Origin: Thermophilibacter provencensis
GTDB taxonomy: Bacteria > Actinomycetota > Coriobacteriia > Coriobacteriales > Atopobiaceae
Direction: 5' to 3'
NCBI RefSeq assembly: GCF_030372065.1
Contig: NZ_JAUDEA010000004.1
Span: forward strand, 62,001-126,000
DNA length: 64,000 bases
The notes under the pieces: model-generated
Seen by the model: only the letters and a program-made list of their open reading frames with translations
What the model was told of the DNA's origin: nothing
Database searches by the model: none
Translations under genes and position numbers: made by a program
In this document: in pieces, positions 24,587 to 59,306 of the stretch
Position numbering within the stretch: the first letter of the stretch is position 1
Layout of the letters: each line of letters starts with the position of its first letter

Positions 24587-24625
24587 CGGGCCGGACGTCC
24601 TTCTCGGCGTCCGGCCCGTTTTGTT
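24587..24625 (+). terminator. Terminator after tRNA-Lys
   Basis: CGGGCCGGACG and CGTCCGGCCCG form an 11-bp stem with a ten-base loop, then TTTTGTTT. Confidence 0.88.
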
Positions 24626-24738
24626 TCAAGAAGGATTCTTTTCTCGCAGTCAACGCCTCCAAGGAATATAGTCAGCCACGTCAGACAGCCGCGAGCCAAT
24701 AGCCCGCGCCCGCTCAACTACTGAGGAGGCCAACGTTT

Positions 24739-24813
24739 ATGAACGTTCACAGCGCGCACATGCCCGCTGCCCTCCTCGCCGCCCGACGCCAGAACCGACG
24801 AATCACGCCCTAG
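24739..24813 (+). CDS. Probable arginine-sensing leader peptide upstream of argG
   Basis: A 24-codon ORF preceded by GAGGAGG, beginning MNVHSAHMPA and ending in the run LLAARRQNRRITP. Four of its last nine residues are Arg, encoded CGA, CGC, CGA, CGA, in a genome that clearly prefers CGC; CGA is likely to be slowly decoded. The Arg codons overlap the 5' arm of a stable hairpin that precedes a terminator in front of argG. This is the classical layout of a leader peptide for transcription attenuation. A likely -10 element TATAGT lies at 24667–24672. Inferred from sequence only. Confidence 0.7.
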   Translation: MNVHSAHMPAALLAARRQNRRITP

Positions 24814-24890
24814 ATGTCGCGTGCCGCTTCAGCTTGTCGGTTCTCGTTGCCTGTCTAGCTCCAGCGCCCCGCGACGTCGGGGCTTTCTTA
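24791..24890 (+). promoter_or_regulatory. Candidate arginine attenuator of argG
   Basis: Segment 24791–24801 (AGAACCGACGA, within the Arg codons of the leader) pairs with 24834–24844 (TTGTCGGTTCT) over 11 bp including one G·U. A terminator follows: GCCCCG, six-base loop, CGGGGC (24866–24883), then TTTCTT. A possible antiterminator pairs GTCGCG (24816–24821) with CGCGAC (24870–24875), disrupting the terminator stem. A ribosome stalled on the Arg codons would cover the first segment and change the pairing. The direction of switching is inference. Confidence 0.6.
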
Positions 24891-24925
24891 TGTCGCTGAA
24901 CACCAACCCAGAAAGGGAAACAACC

Positions 24926-26155
<1,230 letters not shown>

Positions 26156-26385: not shown

Positions 26386-27486
26386 TCAATAGTTTCCGAG
26401 AGAAGTGCCGCCAGACCATGGATAGAGAGACCAGATAAGCCTCTGTCTCCGAATGCTGCGCTCGCGCGCGAGCGCGCGCCGAACATTATCGGCCACAGCC
26501 CCGCCCATTCCCGCAATGCGTTCCGAAGCGCTAATCGCTGCAAGAACGGCGGCATCGAGCCCTCCCGACTCAAACAGGTCTTCGGCAACTATGGGAAGCA
26601 CAATCCGACCACCTGCCAGCAGCTCTCTGTTTCTTCGCAGGTCGTCGACATATTTCTCTCTGACTTGCACAAGCGCCGCGCGAATCTCATCCTTTTCAAG
26701 CGAGCCAACGTCTATCGCCGCCAAATCGAGGTGTCCATAGCCGTCATAGTTAAATCCGACGGGCAGATCGTCCAGCGCGATGTCGGGAATGCGCTTCTCC
26801 TTGGCTCCCTTGAGCCTAAGCTCCCTGCCGGGACCCTCCGGAACATTGAGCCGAATGTTTGGTATTCCGTACCCCTCTTGTTCGATTGATCGAACAAGAA
26901 GCATGGCCACGATGGCCTCCATGACGGACCACGCATTGTCGCGGACATTTTCGAGTGCGGCGAGAGCGAGGCTTCGCGTCCGAGTTGCCGGGAACTTGAG
27001 TAAGTAGCGCCTGATGTTATGCACCGTCGTGAGTGGCCTGACCCCATGTGTGACGTTTCCAGTCCGAGGGTCTGCGGAATCTCGTGTAAAGGTTCCGCAG
27101 AGCTCGTATCCCACAAGCTCCAAGGAGGCTTGTTCCATCACGCTCGCAAGTTCTAGAAAGAGCAGCTCGGGGCACGGGATGGCGAACTCGTGGCTTACGC
27201 GGATAAACGAACCTGCTGGAATCTGGTCTCTGTAGACAGTTGCATGGACGAAGCTTGCCTTTGGTCGAGATGACGCAGATGGCACAGCAATCTCAAAAGG
27301 ATGGGAGAGACTTGGCGGATTGGCGAGTCCAACCAGCTGGTAAGGGATGATGCGTCTGGTCCATCGGTGCTGGGGCCAGGGGTCGGGAGACGACACCCCA
27401 CACCTTTCTGCATCGGAGAAGTCCCCCTCCGTCCTGCAGCGCCTTAACAAAGACAGCGCAGTTAGTCTGTTGACACAAACGTTCAT
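26386..27486 (-). CDS. Hypothetical protein, possibly with a nuclease-like (DUF559/AbiEi-type) fold
   Basis: A 366-residue protein of unknown function, inserted between argG and argH on the opposite strand. The pattern of a middle domain (VHATVYRDQIPAGSFIRVSH, then IPCPELLFLELASVM and LVGYELCGTF) followed by RDNAWSVMEAIVAMLL, GYGIPNIRLN and FNYDGYGHLDLAAID resembles the actinobacterial proteins annotated as AbiEi-like or DUF559 (very-short-patch-repair-like) proteins; the D-G…H-x-D element could be a nuclease core. This likeness is by eye and weak. The ATG and composition (AT-richer upstream) suggest acquired DNA. A 38-bp inverted-repeat pair flanks its 3' end. Confidence 0.55.
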   Translation of the reverse strand: MNVCVNRLTALSLLRRCRTEGDFSDAERCGVSSPDPWPQHRWTRRIIPYQLVGLANPPSLSHPFEIAVPSASSRPKASFVHATVYRDQIPAGSFIRVSHEFAIPCPELLFLELASVMEQASLELVGYELCGTFTRDSADPRTGNVTHGVRPLTTVHNIRRYLLKFPATRTRSLALAALENVRDNAWSVMEAIVAMLLVRSIEQEGYGIPNIRLNVPEGPGRELRLKGAKEKRIPDIALDDLPVGFNYDGYGHLDLAAIDVGSLEKDEIRAALVQVREKYVDDLRRNRELLAGGRIVLPIVAEDLFESGGLDAAVLAAISASERIAGMGGAVADNVRRALARERSIRRQRLIWSLYPWSGGTSLGNY

Positions 27487-27657: not shown

Positions 27658-29052
27658 ATGATGGCGCTGTGGGGCGGCAGATTCGAGAAGGGCGTGGACC
27701 AGTTCACGCAGGAGTTTGGCGCGAGCCTCGAGGTCGATAAGAACATGGCCCAGCAGGACATTGCCGGTAGCCGCGCCCATGCGCGCATGCTCGCCGAGCA
27801 GGGCATCATCTCTGTCGACGACCAGGCGGCCATCGACCAAGGCCTCGCCCACATAGCCGACCAAATTGAACAAGGCACCTTCGCCTGGGACGTCAACGAC
27901 GAGGACGTCCACATGGCCGTGGAGGGCGCGCTCACCCGCAACATCGGGACGCCGGGTGGTCGCTTGCACACGGGTCGCTCCCGCAACGACCAAGTTGCCA
28001 CGGATATTCGTCTGCTCGCCAAGGACCTCTGCGACCAGCTTCTCGCCGGAAACGCCGCCCTGCGCCGCGTGCTCCTTGACGCCGCCGAGAAGAACCTCGA
28101 CGTCGTGATGCCCGGCTACACGCACCTCCAGCACGCTCAGCCGGTGCTGTTCTCTCATCACCTGCTCGCTTACTTCTGGATGTTCACGCGCGACTTCACG
28201 CGTCTCGTCGCGTCGCGCACGGCGGCCGACGCCAACCCGCTCGGCGCGGCGGCGCTCGCCGGTACCACCTACCCGCTCAACCGCCAGCGCACCACGGAGC
28301 TCCTGGGCTTCTCGCGCACAATCCCCAACTCGCTCGACGCCGTCTCCGACCGCGACTACCTGCTCGATCTTGAGTACGCCTGCGCCGTGAGCATGATGCA
28401 CCTCTCACGCCTCTGCGAGGAGATCGTCCTGTGGAGCTCCACCGAGTTTGGCTTCATCACGCTCTCGGACGCCTACTCCACCGGCAGCTCCATCATGCCG
28501 CAGAAGAAGAACCCGGACTTTGCCGAGCTCACGCGTGGCAAGACCGGCCGCGTCTACGGCGACCTCATGGCACTTCTCACCACGATGAAGTCCCTGCCGC
28601 TGGCGTACAACAAGGACCTCCAGGAGTGCAAAGAGGGTCCGCTCGACGCTGCCCGCACGCTCAGCGATTGCATGGAGATCGCTGCGGGCATGGTGGAGAC
28701 CTGGACCGTCAACGCCGACGCCATGCTGGCCCAGGCGGGCACGGGCTTCTCGGCAGCCACGGACGTTGCCGACTACCTGGCCAAGAAGGGCATGCCCTTC
28801 CGTGAGGCTCACCGCGTGGTGGGCGAGCTCGTGCTCTACTGCGAGAAGCACGGCAAGGGCCTCGAGGATCTCACGGCCGAGGAGTTTGCCGCTGCGAGCC
28901 CGCTCTTTGAGGCGGACATTGCGCAGGACCTGGACCCCGCGGGCATCGCCAACGCGCGCGTGACGTATGGCGGAACCGGCCACGATGCCGTTGTGGTGCA
29001 GCTCGGCGAGGCGCGCGAGGCGCTTGCGGCGGACGAGGCGAGCCTCGCCTAG
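27658..29052 (+). CDS. argH: Argininosuccinate lyase
   Basis: ArgH splits argininosuccinate to arginine and fumarate. The 464-residue protein has the family signature TGSSIMPQKKNPDFAELTRGK, HTGRSRNDQVATD and PGYTHLQHAQPV. GGAAGGAG precedes two consecutive ATG codons. It is separated from argG by an unrelated minus-strand gene and has its own AT-rich upstream region of about 170 bases. The 3' end is followed by a weak GC hairpin near 29106–29135. Confidence 0.96.
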   Translation: MMALWGGRFEKGVDQFTQEFGASLEVDKNMAQQDIAGSRAHARMLAEQGIISVDDQAAIDQGLAHIADQIEQGTFAWDVNDEDVHMAVEGALTRNIGTPGGRLHTGRSRNDQVATDIRLLAKDLCDQLLAGNAALRRVLLDAAEKNLDVVMPGYTHLQHAQPVLFSHHLLAYFWMFTRDFTRLVASRTAADANPLGAAALAGTTYPLNRQRTTELLGFSRTIPNSLDAVSDRDYLLDLEYACAVSMMHLSRLCEEIVLWSSTEFGFITLSDAYSTGSSIMPQKKNPDFAELTRGKTGRVYGDLMALLTTMKSLPLAYNKDLQECKEGPLDAARTLSDCMEIAAGMVETWTVNADAMLAQAGTGFSAATDVADYLAKKGMPFREAHRVVGELVLYCEKHGKGLEDLTAEEFAAASPLFEADIAQDLDPAGIANARVTYGGTGHDAVVVQLGEAREALAADEASLA

Positions 29053-55504: not shown

Positions 55505-55581
55505 TGGTGCGGCGTATAGGATTCGAACCTATGACGCCCTGATTCGTAGTCAGGTCCTCTATCCAGCTGAGGTAACGCCGC
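55505..55581 (-). tRNA. tRNA-Arg (ACG)
   Basis: On the minus strand: acceptor GCGGCGT/ACGCCGC, D arm CTCAGCTGGATAGAG, anticodon stem CCTGA/TCAGG with loop CTACGAA (anticodon ACG), T arm ATAGGTTCGAATCCTAT, CCA encoded. Confidence 0.95.
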
Positions 55582-57674: not shown

Positions 57675-59306
57675 ATGGCAGACACTCCCATCAGGCGCGC
57701 GCTCGTCTCGGTAACCGACAAAACCGGCGTCGTTGACTTCGTCAAGGCGCTCGAGGACGAGTTTGGGGTCGAGGTGATCTCAACCGGCGGCACGGCTCGC
57801 GTGCTCGAGGAGGCCGGCGTCCATGTGGTGCCCATCGAGCAGTACACGGGCTTCCCGGAGATGATGGACGGCCGCGTGAAGACCCTTCACCCCAAGGTGC
57901 ACGGCGGCCTTCTTGCCCGCCGCGACAACCCCGCCCACATGGCCGAGGCTGCCGAGCACGGCATTGGTATGATTGATCTTGTGTGCGTGAACCTCTATGA
58001 GTTTGAGAAGACCGTGTCCAAGCCGGACGTTACGTTTGACGACGCCATCGAGCACATTGACATCGGTGGCCCCTCGATGCTGCGCTCCGCGGCAAAGAAC
58101 GCCGCGTCCGTGACCGTGGTCTCCGACCCGGCGGACTACGACGAGGTCCTCGAGGAGATGCGCGCCAACGACGGCTGCACCTCCCTCGAGCTGCGACGCT
58201 ACCTGCAGCTCAAGGTCTACGAGACCACGGCCAACTACGACGCGGCCATCGCCATGTGGCTCGCCGACCGCTACGACGAGGACTTCGCGGACGACGAGTG
58301 CGACGATGCTCCCGCCATGCCCGAGGAGCTGGGCTTCTATCTCGAGAAGGTCGACGACCTGCGCTACGGCGAGAACCCCCAGCAGACCGCCGCGGTCTAC
58401 CGCTTTGCCGACGAGATGGCCGACGCCTGCTCCTCCGCCAACCCGCTCGTGGGCGCCGAGCAGCTCCAGGGCAAGCCGCTCTCCTACAACAACTACCTGG
58501 ACGCGGACGCCGCGTGGAACCTCGTGCGCGAGTTCGACGGACCGGCCTGCGTGATCCTCAAGCACCAGAACCCCTGCGGCTCCGCCGTTGCCGAGGACAT
58601 CACCACCGCCTACGACCGCGCCTTTGCGTGCGATCCCAAGAGCGCATTTGGCGGCATCATCGCCTGCAACCGCGAGGTGCCCTTTGAGCTGGTGGAGCAC
58701 GCCTTTGACGAGAACGGCCAGTTCGTCGAGGTCATCATTGCCCCGAGCTACACCCCCGAGGCCATCGAGCGCATGGCCAAGCGCCCCAACCTGCGCGTCC
58801 TTGCCACGGGTGGTGCCGAGGGGCACGCTGAGTTTGAGCTGCGCTCCATCGATGGCGGCATCCTCGTCCAGAACGTCGACACCGTTGCCGAGGACCCCGA
58901 GACCTTCACCTGCCCCACCGAGCGCAAGCCCACGCCGGAGGAGATGGACGAGCTCATGTTTGCGTGGCGCGTCTGCAAGGGCGTGAAGTCCAACGCAATT
59001 CTCGTCTCCAAGGACAAGTCCGGCATTGGCATGGGCCCGGGTCAGCCCAACCGCGTTGACTCCGCGCTTCTGGCCTGCCAGCGAGCGGACGAGGCCTGCG
59101 AGCGCATGGGCATGGAGAAGGGCGGATACGCCTGTGCGTCCGACGCATTCTTCCCGTTCCGCGACAACGTGGACGTGCTCGCCGAGCACGGTGTGACCTG
59201 CATCATCCAGCCCGGCGGCTCCAAGCGCGACGACGAGTCCATCGAGGCCTGCAACGAGCACGGCATTGCGATGGTCTTCACCGGCAACCGCCACTTCCGC
59301 CACTAA
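57675..59306 (+). CDS. purH: Bifunctional AICAR formyltransferase/IMP cyclohydrolase
   Basis: PurH performs the last two steps to IMP. The 543-residue protein has the cyclohydrolase (MGS-like) domain at about 1–195 ([48 protein letters not shown]) and the formyltransferase domain after it ([56 protein letters not shown]). AAGGAGG precedes the ATG. Confidence 0.96.

Follow-up and report, generated by a model that had tools for sequence, protein, structure and literature searches.

The argG gene of Thermophilibacter provencensis is preceded by what is very likely a real regulatory element, and we put at about 0.87 the probability that this element works as a ribosome-mediated transcription attenuator sensing arginine through charged tRNA-Arg. 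The window referred to throughout is the whole stretch of 64,000 nucleotides that was analysed; argG and all elements described upstream of it lie on its + strand. The leader transcript would encode a short peptide carrying the motif RRQxRR. With arginine plentiful, the ribosome would pass the Arg codons, reach the stop codon and cover a segment that we call B (24807–24821), whereupon the terminator at 24866–24883 would form and end transcription before argG. With charged tRNA-Arg scarce, the ribosome would instead stall on the CGA/CGC codons, leaving B free to pair with the terminator sequence, and argG would be transcribed. That stalling at low charged tRNA-Arg prevents termination had been proposed in an earlier note on this DNA, and it appears to be the best-supported reading: an Arg-rich leader, a Shine–Dalgarno (SD) sequence, an alternative pairing and a terminator recur together upstream of argG in relatives, and the folding calculations mostly agree. 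What we infer is the stalling itself, the role of arginine as signal and which way regulation runs in cells.

The support is computational throughout, and what it shows is a conserved coding ORF, a conserved Arg block, the terminator, the complementarity of B to the terminator, and a calculated terminator fold that depends on ribosome position. The regulated gene, argG (24926–26155), encodes argininosuccinate synthase (NCBIfam TIGR00032, 494.8 bits against a cut-off of 268.2) and is followed downstream by argH (27658–29052); its nearest named relatives are from Thermophilibacter and Olsenella (Atopobiaceae). The host genome also holds argJ (by Pfam), with an apparent argCJBD cluster around it as judged by eye, and ArgR. 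The gap between argG and argH is 1.5 kb in the window and about 90–260 bases in two other genomes (G111 and G056); the minus-strand ORF lying in it (26386–27486) matches nothing in Pfam or NCBIfam and is perhaps not a gene. A further genome, G057, carries one argG match on contig 1 and additional ones on contig 2, with 4 in the whole genome.

The 24-codon ORF with a strong ribosome binding site described in the earlier note is indeed present, with the SD sequence GAGGAGG at 24723–24729 and the ORF running from ATG at 24739 to TAG at 24813, a 24-residue peptide with the translation MNVHSAHMPAALLAARRQNRRITP. Judged from the letters, it would supply the short, SD-led translatable ORF that this class of regulators places before the gene. 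Its last nine sense codons, CGA CGC CAG AAC CGA CGA ATC ACG CCC, include four for Arg, three of them CGA as had been noted, and the first six (RRQNRR; 24784–24801) form the putative sensor block, whose core is conserved in relatives. Among the Arg codons of argG and argH, CGC is used 34 times, CGT 5 times, AGA once and CGA never, and CGA is absent from all 97 Arg codons of four window ORFs combined. The window also contains a tRNA-Arg with anticodon ACG (55505–55581), which we expect to read CGA via inosine. Folding, which had been put forward as a check, gave a structure better than chance for 24667–24926, with 3 of 200 dinucleotide shuffles folding at least as well (z −2.38).

The GC stem and T-rich run that had been seen before argG correspond to a predicted intrinsic terminator between leader and gene (24866–24890; GCCCCG CGACGT CGGGGC, then TTTCTTA), in which the stem at 24866–24883 has 6/6 G–C pairs and is followed by TTTCTTATGT. 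In relatives, a terminator hairpin candidate was found in 75 of 76 stretches with the element, the limits of five loci being set by hand; the exception, L121, has the Arg block and no terminator that we could find. The tail has at least four T in 62 of the 75 scanned elements and fewer than four in the other 13 (hairpin picked).

Segment B, the candidate antiterminator strand, consists of GCCC at 24807–24810 and GATGTCGCG at 24813–24821, and can pair with the terminator along its loop and 3′ arm, forming a calculated duplex of −27.5 kcal/mol in the window. Across 53 distinct pairs, duplexes of B with its own terminator averaged −23.06 kcal/mol against −20.60 when partners were swapped, with 0 of 5000 permutations as low, a comparison that rests mainly on differences between clades and is uncorrected for relatedness; for 38 of the 53, the own duplex was better than the average of the others. 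As controls, pairing of the Arg block with the terminator gave 251 of 5000 permutations, and pairing of B with segment C (below) was worse than swapped. By eye, B and the terminator change together in several lineages (L014, L016, L030 and L128). In A2, an alignment of 28 sequences of the better-aligning type, the B–terminator pairing is kept in 82% of cells, compared with 22–54% when slid, and shows no covariation beyond shuffles. The earlier note had proposed to look for covarying stems. The arrangement is conserved; on covariation of the antiterminator pairing the results diverge, the swaps across clades giving 0 of 5000 and A2 no excess over shuffles. For P3, a stem lying between B and the terminator, 72% of cells are paired and 3 of 500 shuffles reach the covariation score; this applies to the A2 type only. 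A local hairpin in the minimum-free-energy fold, P2 (24804–24823; CACGC at 24804–24808 with GCGTG at 24819–24823), holds part of B and is paired in 84.3% of A2 cells; as a covarying stem it was set aside, its covariation not exceeding that of shuffles.

The earlier note had instead drawn attention to an 11-bp pairing between the Arg codons and a downstream segment. This pairing exists, joining 24791–24801 to segment C (TTGTCGGTTCT, 24834–24844) with one G·U, and in a swap test of 62 pairs it gave 0 of 5000 permutations with a small gain (−12.18 versus −11.03). As the main switch it fares less well, since C is variable in relatives and the pairing is weakened in several genus members with ATG as the fourth block codon. 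We regard pairing of B with the terminator as the better candidate antiterminator.

The influence of ribosome position was calculated by folding the RNA downstream of the ribosome with each leader codon in turn in the A site, assuming 11 nt protected beyond the codon, and taking the mean probability of the terminator stem as readout; this is an equilibrium and not a co-transcriptional calculation. The set comprised 65 distinct leaders, with L121 dropped here and from all fold counts (no terminator) and L091 dropped from these folds as its terminator alone gave fewer than 4 pairs. In the window, each of the four Arg codons gave a terminator probability of 0.00, which became 0.98 from ACG (codon 23) onward up to the stop, as predicted for a mutually exclusive antiterminator set by ribosome position. 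Over the 65 leaders the mean rose from 0.25 on the first Arg pair and 0.40 on the second to 0.93 at the stop codon. In 49 leaders the value at the stop was higher than on the first pair by over 0.2, in 45 it was higher than on the second by that margin, and in none was the order reversed to that extent; the terminator remained above 0.7 despite a ribosome on the first Arg pair in 14. When the leader was shuffled, the Arg-codon value became 0.72, compared with 0.33 observed; the observed value was the lower in 54 of 65, and in 40 of 65 at most one of 20 shuffles was as low. Eight of the ten elements from a second family, none of which contributed to the covariance model described below, were folded as well: L208 (partly), L209, L212 and L215 switch; the other four have terminators too stable to do so in an equilibrium calculation. 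By these folds, termination would need a ribosome that has moved past the Arg block. A low terminator probability is not special to the Arg codons, being below 0.3 in 38 of 65 leaders for the first six codons and in 36 of 65 with no ribosome at all; the specificity would therefore lie in codon identity, and the Arg codons are taken as the place where the ribosome waits because it is they that are conserved.

Conservation was assessed on argG upstream stretches from the genus, the family, named relatives and ten members of the second family, which left 129 distinct stretches after strict removal of duplicates, or 119 excluding the second family. The alignment of related Atopobiaceae proposed in the earlier note bears out the conserved Arg codons: the nucleotide core of the RRQxRR block occurs in 75 of the 129 stretches (65 of the 119). 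Some of our earlier block counts used a pattern demanding CGA or CGT; a search prescribing no codon, for an SD-led ORF of 15–60 aa with xRxxRR, found 78 of 129, of which a few are chance hits. The fifth block codon is CGA in 73 of these 78 leaders and the third is CAG in 72. For the 75 stretches with both Arg block and terminator (67 distinct), an in-frame start could be traced in every case (73 ATG, 2 TTG), giving leaders of 22–33 codons; an SD-like match is present at 73 of the 75, with the start chosen partly by SD match. The N-terminal half of the leader varies across genera while RRQxRR is conserved, providing ahead of argG the conserved run of codons for the pathway end product that is typical of this class. 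Between Q and the second RR the codon is variable at each of its bases and encodes N, D, G, M, A, S or I. In three genus members (L012, L014 and L019) the leader is poor in Arg (SQMRRI or NRQMRRI) and the terminator is of another kind and shorter; these are perhaps decaying or retuned. In Collinsella ihumii (L086) and an uncultured Collinsella (L087), a GTG-started ORF upstream of argG ends in ATRRQRAISRRR and is perhaps a diverged Arg-rich leader, and in two further loci (L088 and L089) an upstream ORF ends in PRRR.

Because CGA is fixed at two Arg positions though the checked window genes avoid it, the element might be a CGA-reading sensor that reports not arginine in general but charging, or A34-to-inosine editing, of tRNA-Arg(ACG), and the nearly invariant CAG codon might add a glutamine input, glutamine being the nitrogen donor for carbamoyl phosphate. 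We offer this refinement tentatively and think it unlikely.

The same conservation bears on nascent-peptide arrest, in which, on the model of the fungal arginine attenuator peptide, the RRQxRR peptide, with arginine as co-effector, would halt the ribosome at high arginine so that it covers B and causes termination; the signal would then be free arginine and not tRNA charging. The Gln is conserved though it is not Arg, and the positions and spacing of the Arg residues are fixed, as a functional peptide would have it. Conservation at the level of codons (CGA at the fifth position and never in argG or argH) would however be needless for a mechanism acting through the peptide only, and the varying residue between Q and R and an N-terminal half unconserved across genera also speak against it. 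We judge both this mechanism and its free-arginine signal quite improbable next to codon-specific stalling.

The distribution of the element was traced with a covariance model. RNAalifold on all 43 sequences (alignment A1) gave only 3 pairs, and the model, R1, was built on A2 with a structure drawn by hand. Its 28 sequences include none from the genus of the window, which R1 matches at 41.5 bits (E 5.6e-10); family genomes that contributed sequences match by construction. With strict filters that lose weak matches, as in all our large family and phylum searches, R1 matched 86 of 140 family genomes at E≤0.05 and 74 at E<1e-4. Comparison of coordinates by eye places all 74 strong matches, one per genome, immediately upstream of argG and on its strand, and none of the 140 family genomes has a strong match (E<1e-4) before another gene. 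Collinsella stretches and the family's genus g31 gave no strong match. A second R1 match in the window (58286–58408; 16.4 bits, E 0.0033) is probably chance.

Of 138 genomes from the second family, 12 have an R1 match at E≤0.001. Ten of them, all of genus g62, do so at E≤2.6e-12 with the leader block present and argG following. The two weak matches (E about 2e-4) were rejected, L243 having a look-alike block but no argG after it and L244 having no block. A phylum sample of 396 genomes yielded 7 matches at E≤0.001, the 4 strong ones from the window's genus and g62; two of the three weak matches (L248 and L249, E about 1e-4) have no block. Generality in Coriobacteriia, raised as a possibility in the earlier note, is not borne out: within the window's family only some members have the element, and in the second family one genus. 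The element needs four changes on a midpoint-rooted ArgG tree built from 58 selected rows, of which 36 have it and 22 lack it; the rows without it include L012, whose leader is the degenerate one ending SQMRRI. One old origin with later losses would fit, as far as a midpoint root allows, and the element is probably ancient within this ArgG clade, with a patchy distribution.

Control of arginine genes is usually ascribed to ArgR, and argG could be controlled by it at an operator, with the leader ORF and stems incidental. ArgR is encoded in the host genome, and the region upstream of the host argC has an AT-rich operator-like palindrome (TGCATATT..AATATGCA), which was not seen by eye in G111, a genome that lacks an ArgR hit; the ARG-box score there was reached by 22 of 300 shuffles and is only suggestive. 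Upstream of argG, however, we found no ARG box: the best score was 9/14, reached by 249 of 300 shuffles, the scoring consensus being one that is not specific to this class. In addition, ArgR (searched with Pfam PF01316 only) is absent from the hits in 13 of 30 other genus members, some of whose genomes are incomplete, and of the 12 such members for which the argG upstream region was available, 11 keep the Arg block or model match and one has a degenerate leader. We therefore consider ArgR control of argG very improbable; the observations suggest a division of labour, with ArgR acting on argC and attenuation on argG.

Leader translation could also act on translation of the gene, the leader ribosome altering access to the argG ribosome-binding site, and an Arg-codon leader of that kind is described for S. 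aureus rbfL in the available part of PMC13009471. We accord this reading very little probability, given that a hairpin with a tail of at least four T lies between leader and gene in 62 of 75 elements and that the argG SD is not part of the switching pairing. That the short ORF overlaps by chance with a T-box, or with a riboswitch binding arginine directly, would suit a structured region, and is nonetheless highly implausible: only tRNA matches Rfam at gathering score in the window and in six loci, a T-box covariance model found nothing in 24630–24960 at E up to 5, and the leaders analysed preserve the frame of their SD-led ORF.

Transcription attenuation by the argG leader would share its main features with the classical leader-peptide attenuators of the enteric trp, his, leu, thr and ilv operons, namely a peptide rich in the regulated amino acid, exclusive antiterminator and terminator, and a switch set by ribosome position. 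It differs from them in the amino acid, arginine, in the gene, argG, and in the position of the antiterminator strand, which comes directly after the sensor codons and in the window overlaps the stop codon of the leader. Another arginine-responsive upstream peptide is the fungal arginine attenuator peptide, which arrests eukaryotic translation at high arginine, whereas codon-specific stalling with transcription attenuation is proposed for argG. Within the same phylum, the part of a 2005 survey of Actinobacteria available to us (PMC1262725) describes attenuators of Streptomyces trpS and leuS, with leader peptide and terminator, and leader peptides of cys and leuA genes, and it reports no conserved RNA structures before arginine operons. 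According to the available part of PMC13009471, S. aureus rbfL resembles the argG leader in having rare Arg codons in an upstream ORF and in sensing arginine by ribosome pausing; its target is the translation initiation of a regulator gene, with repression when arginine is low, in contrast to the argG leader, which is proposed to induce transcription of a biosynthetic gene. The Salmonella speF leader, as far as the part of PMC6386406 available to us describes it, is also arginine-responsive with alternative RNA conformations, and differs in serving a polyamine gene under what is described as multi-level control. Among the matches listed in the open-licence literature we found no description of a leader-peptide transcription attenuator for arginine or argG, and the word argG is absent from the available portions of PMC2965389 and PMC8632094. 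Arginine would very likely be a new signal for leader-peptide attenuation in this group, with the classical mechanism limiting the surprise. The attenuator spans a deep ArgG clade, including genus members in which no ArgR was found, and would be a switch common to many related gut bacteria. It offers a testable account of how these anaerobes control arginine synthesis, and a natural example of a sensor in which use of a rare codon (CGA) is fixed.

The region upstream of the leader was aligned in 28 rows, 27 of the window's genus and G057. It contains a conserved DNA element, TGTTTCAAGAAGGATTCTTTTCTCGC (24622–24647), in which TGTTTC is invariant in all 28 rows and which is possibly part of a promoter or protein site; the strict pattern of this element occurs once in the host genome. 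At 24667–24672 lies a −10-like TATAGT, which by eye is TATAGT or TACACT across the 28 rows, and a conserved block follows the two. Since these elements are shared in all 28 rows, transcription probably starts near 24679, which would place the whole leader in the transcript; a generic sigma-70 promoter scan gave no site upstream of the leader. Some relatives have an extra ∼10–11 bases, one helical turn, between TGTTTC and TATAGT, as if a protein site were keeping its phase to the promoter. Ahead of the leader SD lies a 5′ stem-loop (24691–24707; GCGAGC CAATA GCCCGC) that is strongly conserved in the genus and appears as GCGGGC..GCCCGC in many relatives, as aligned by eye.
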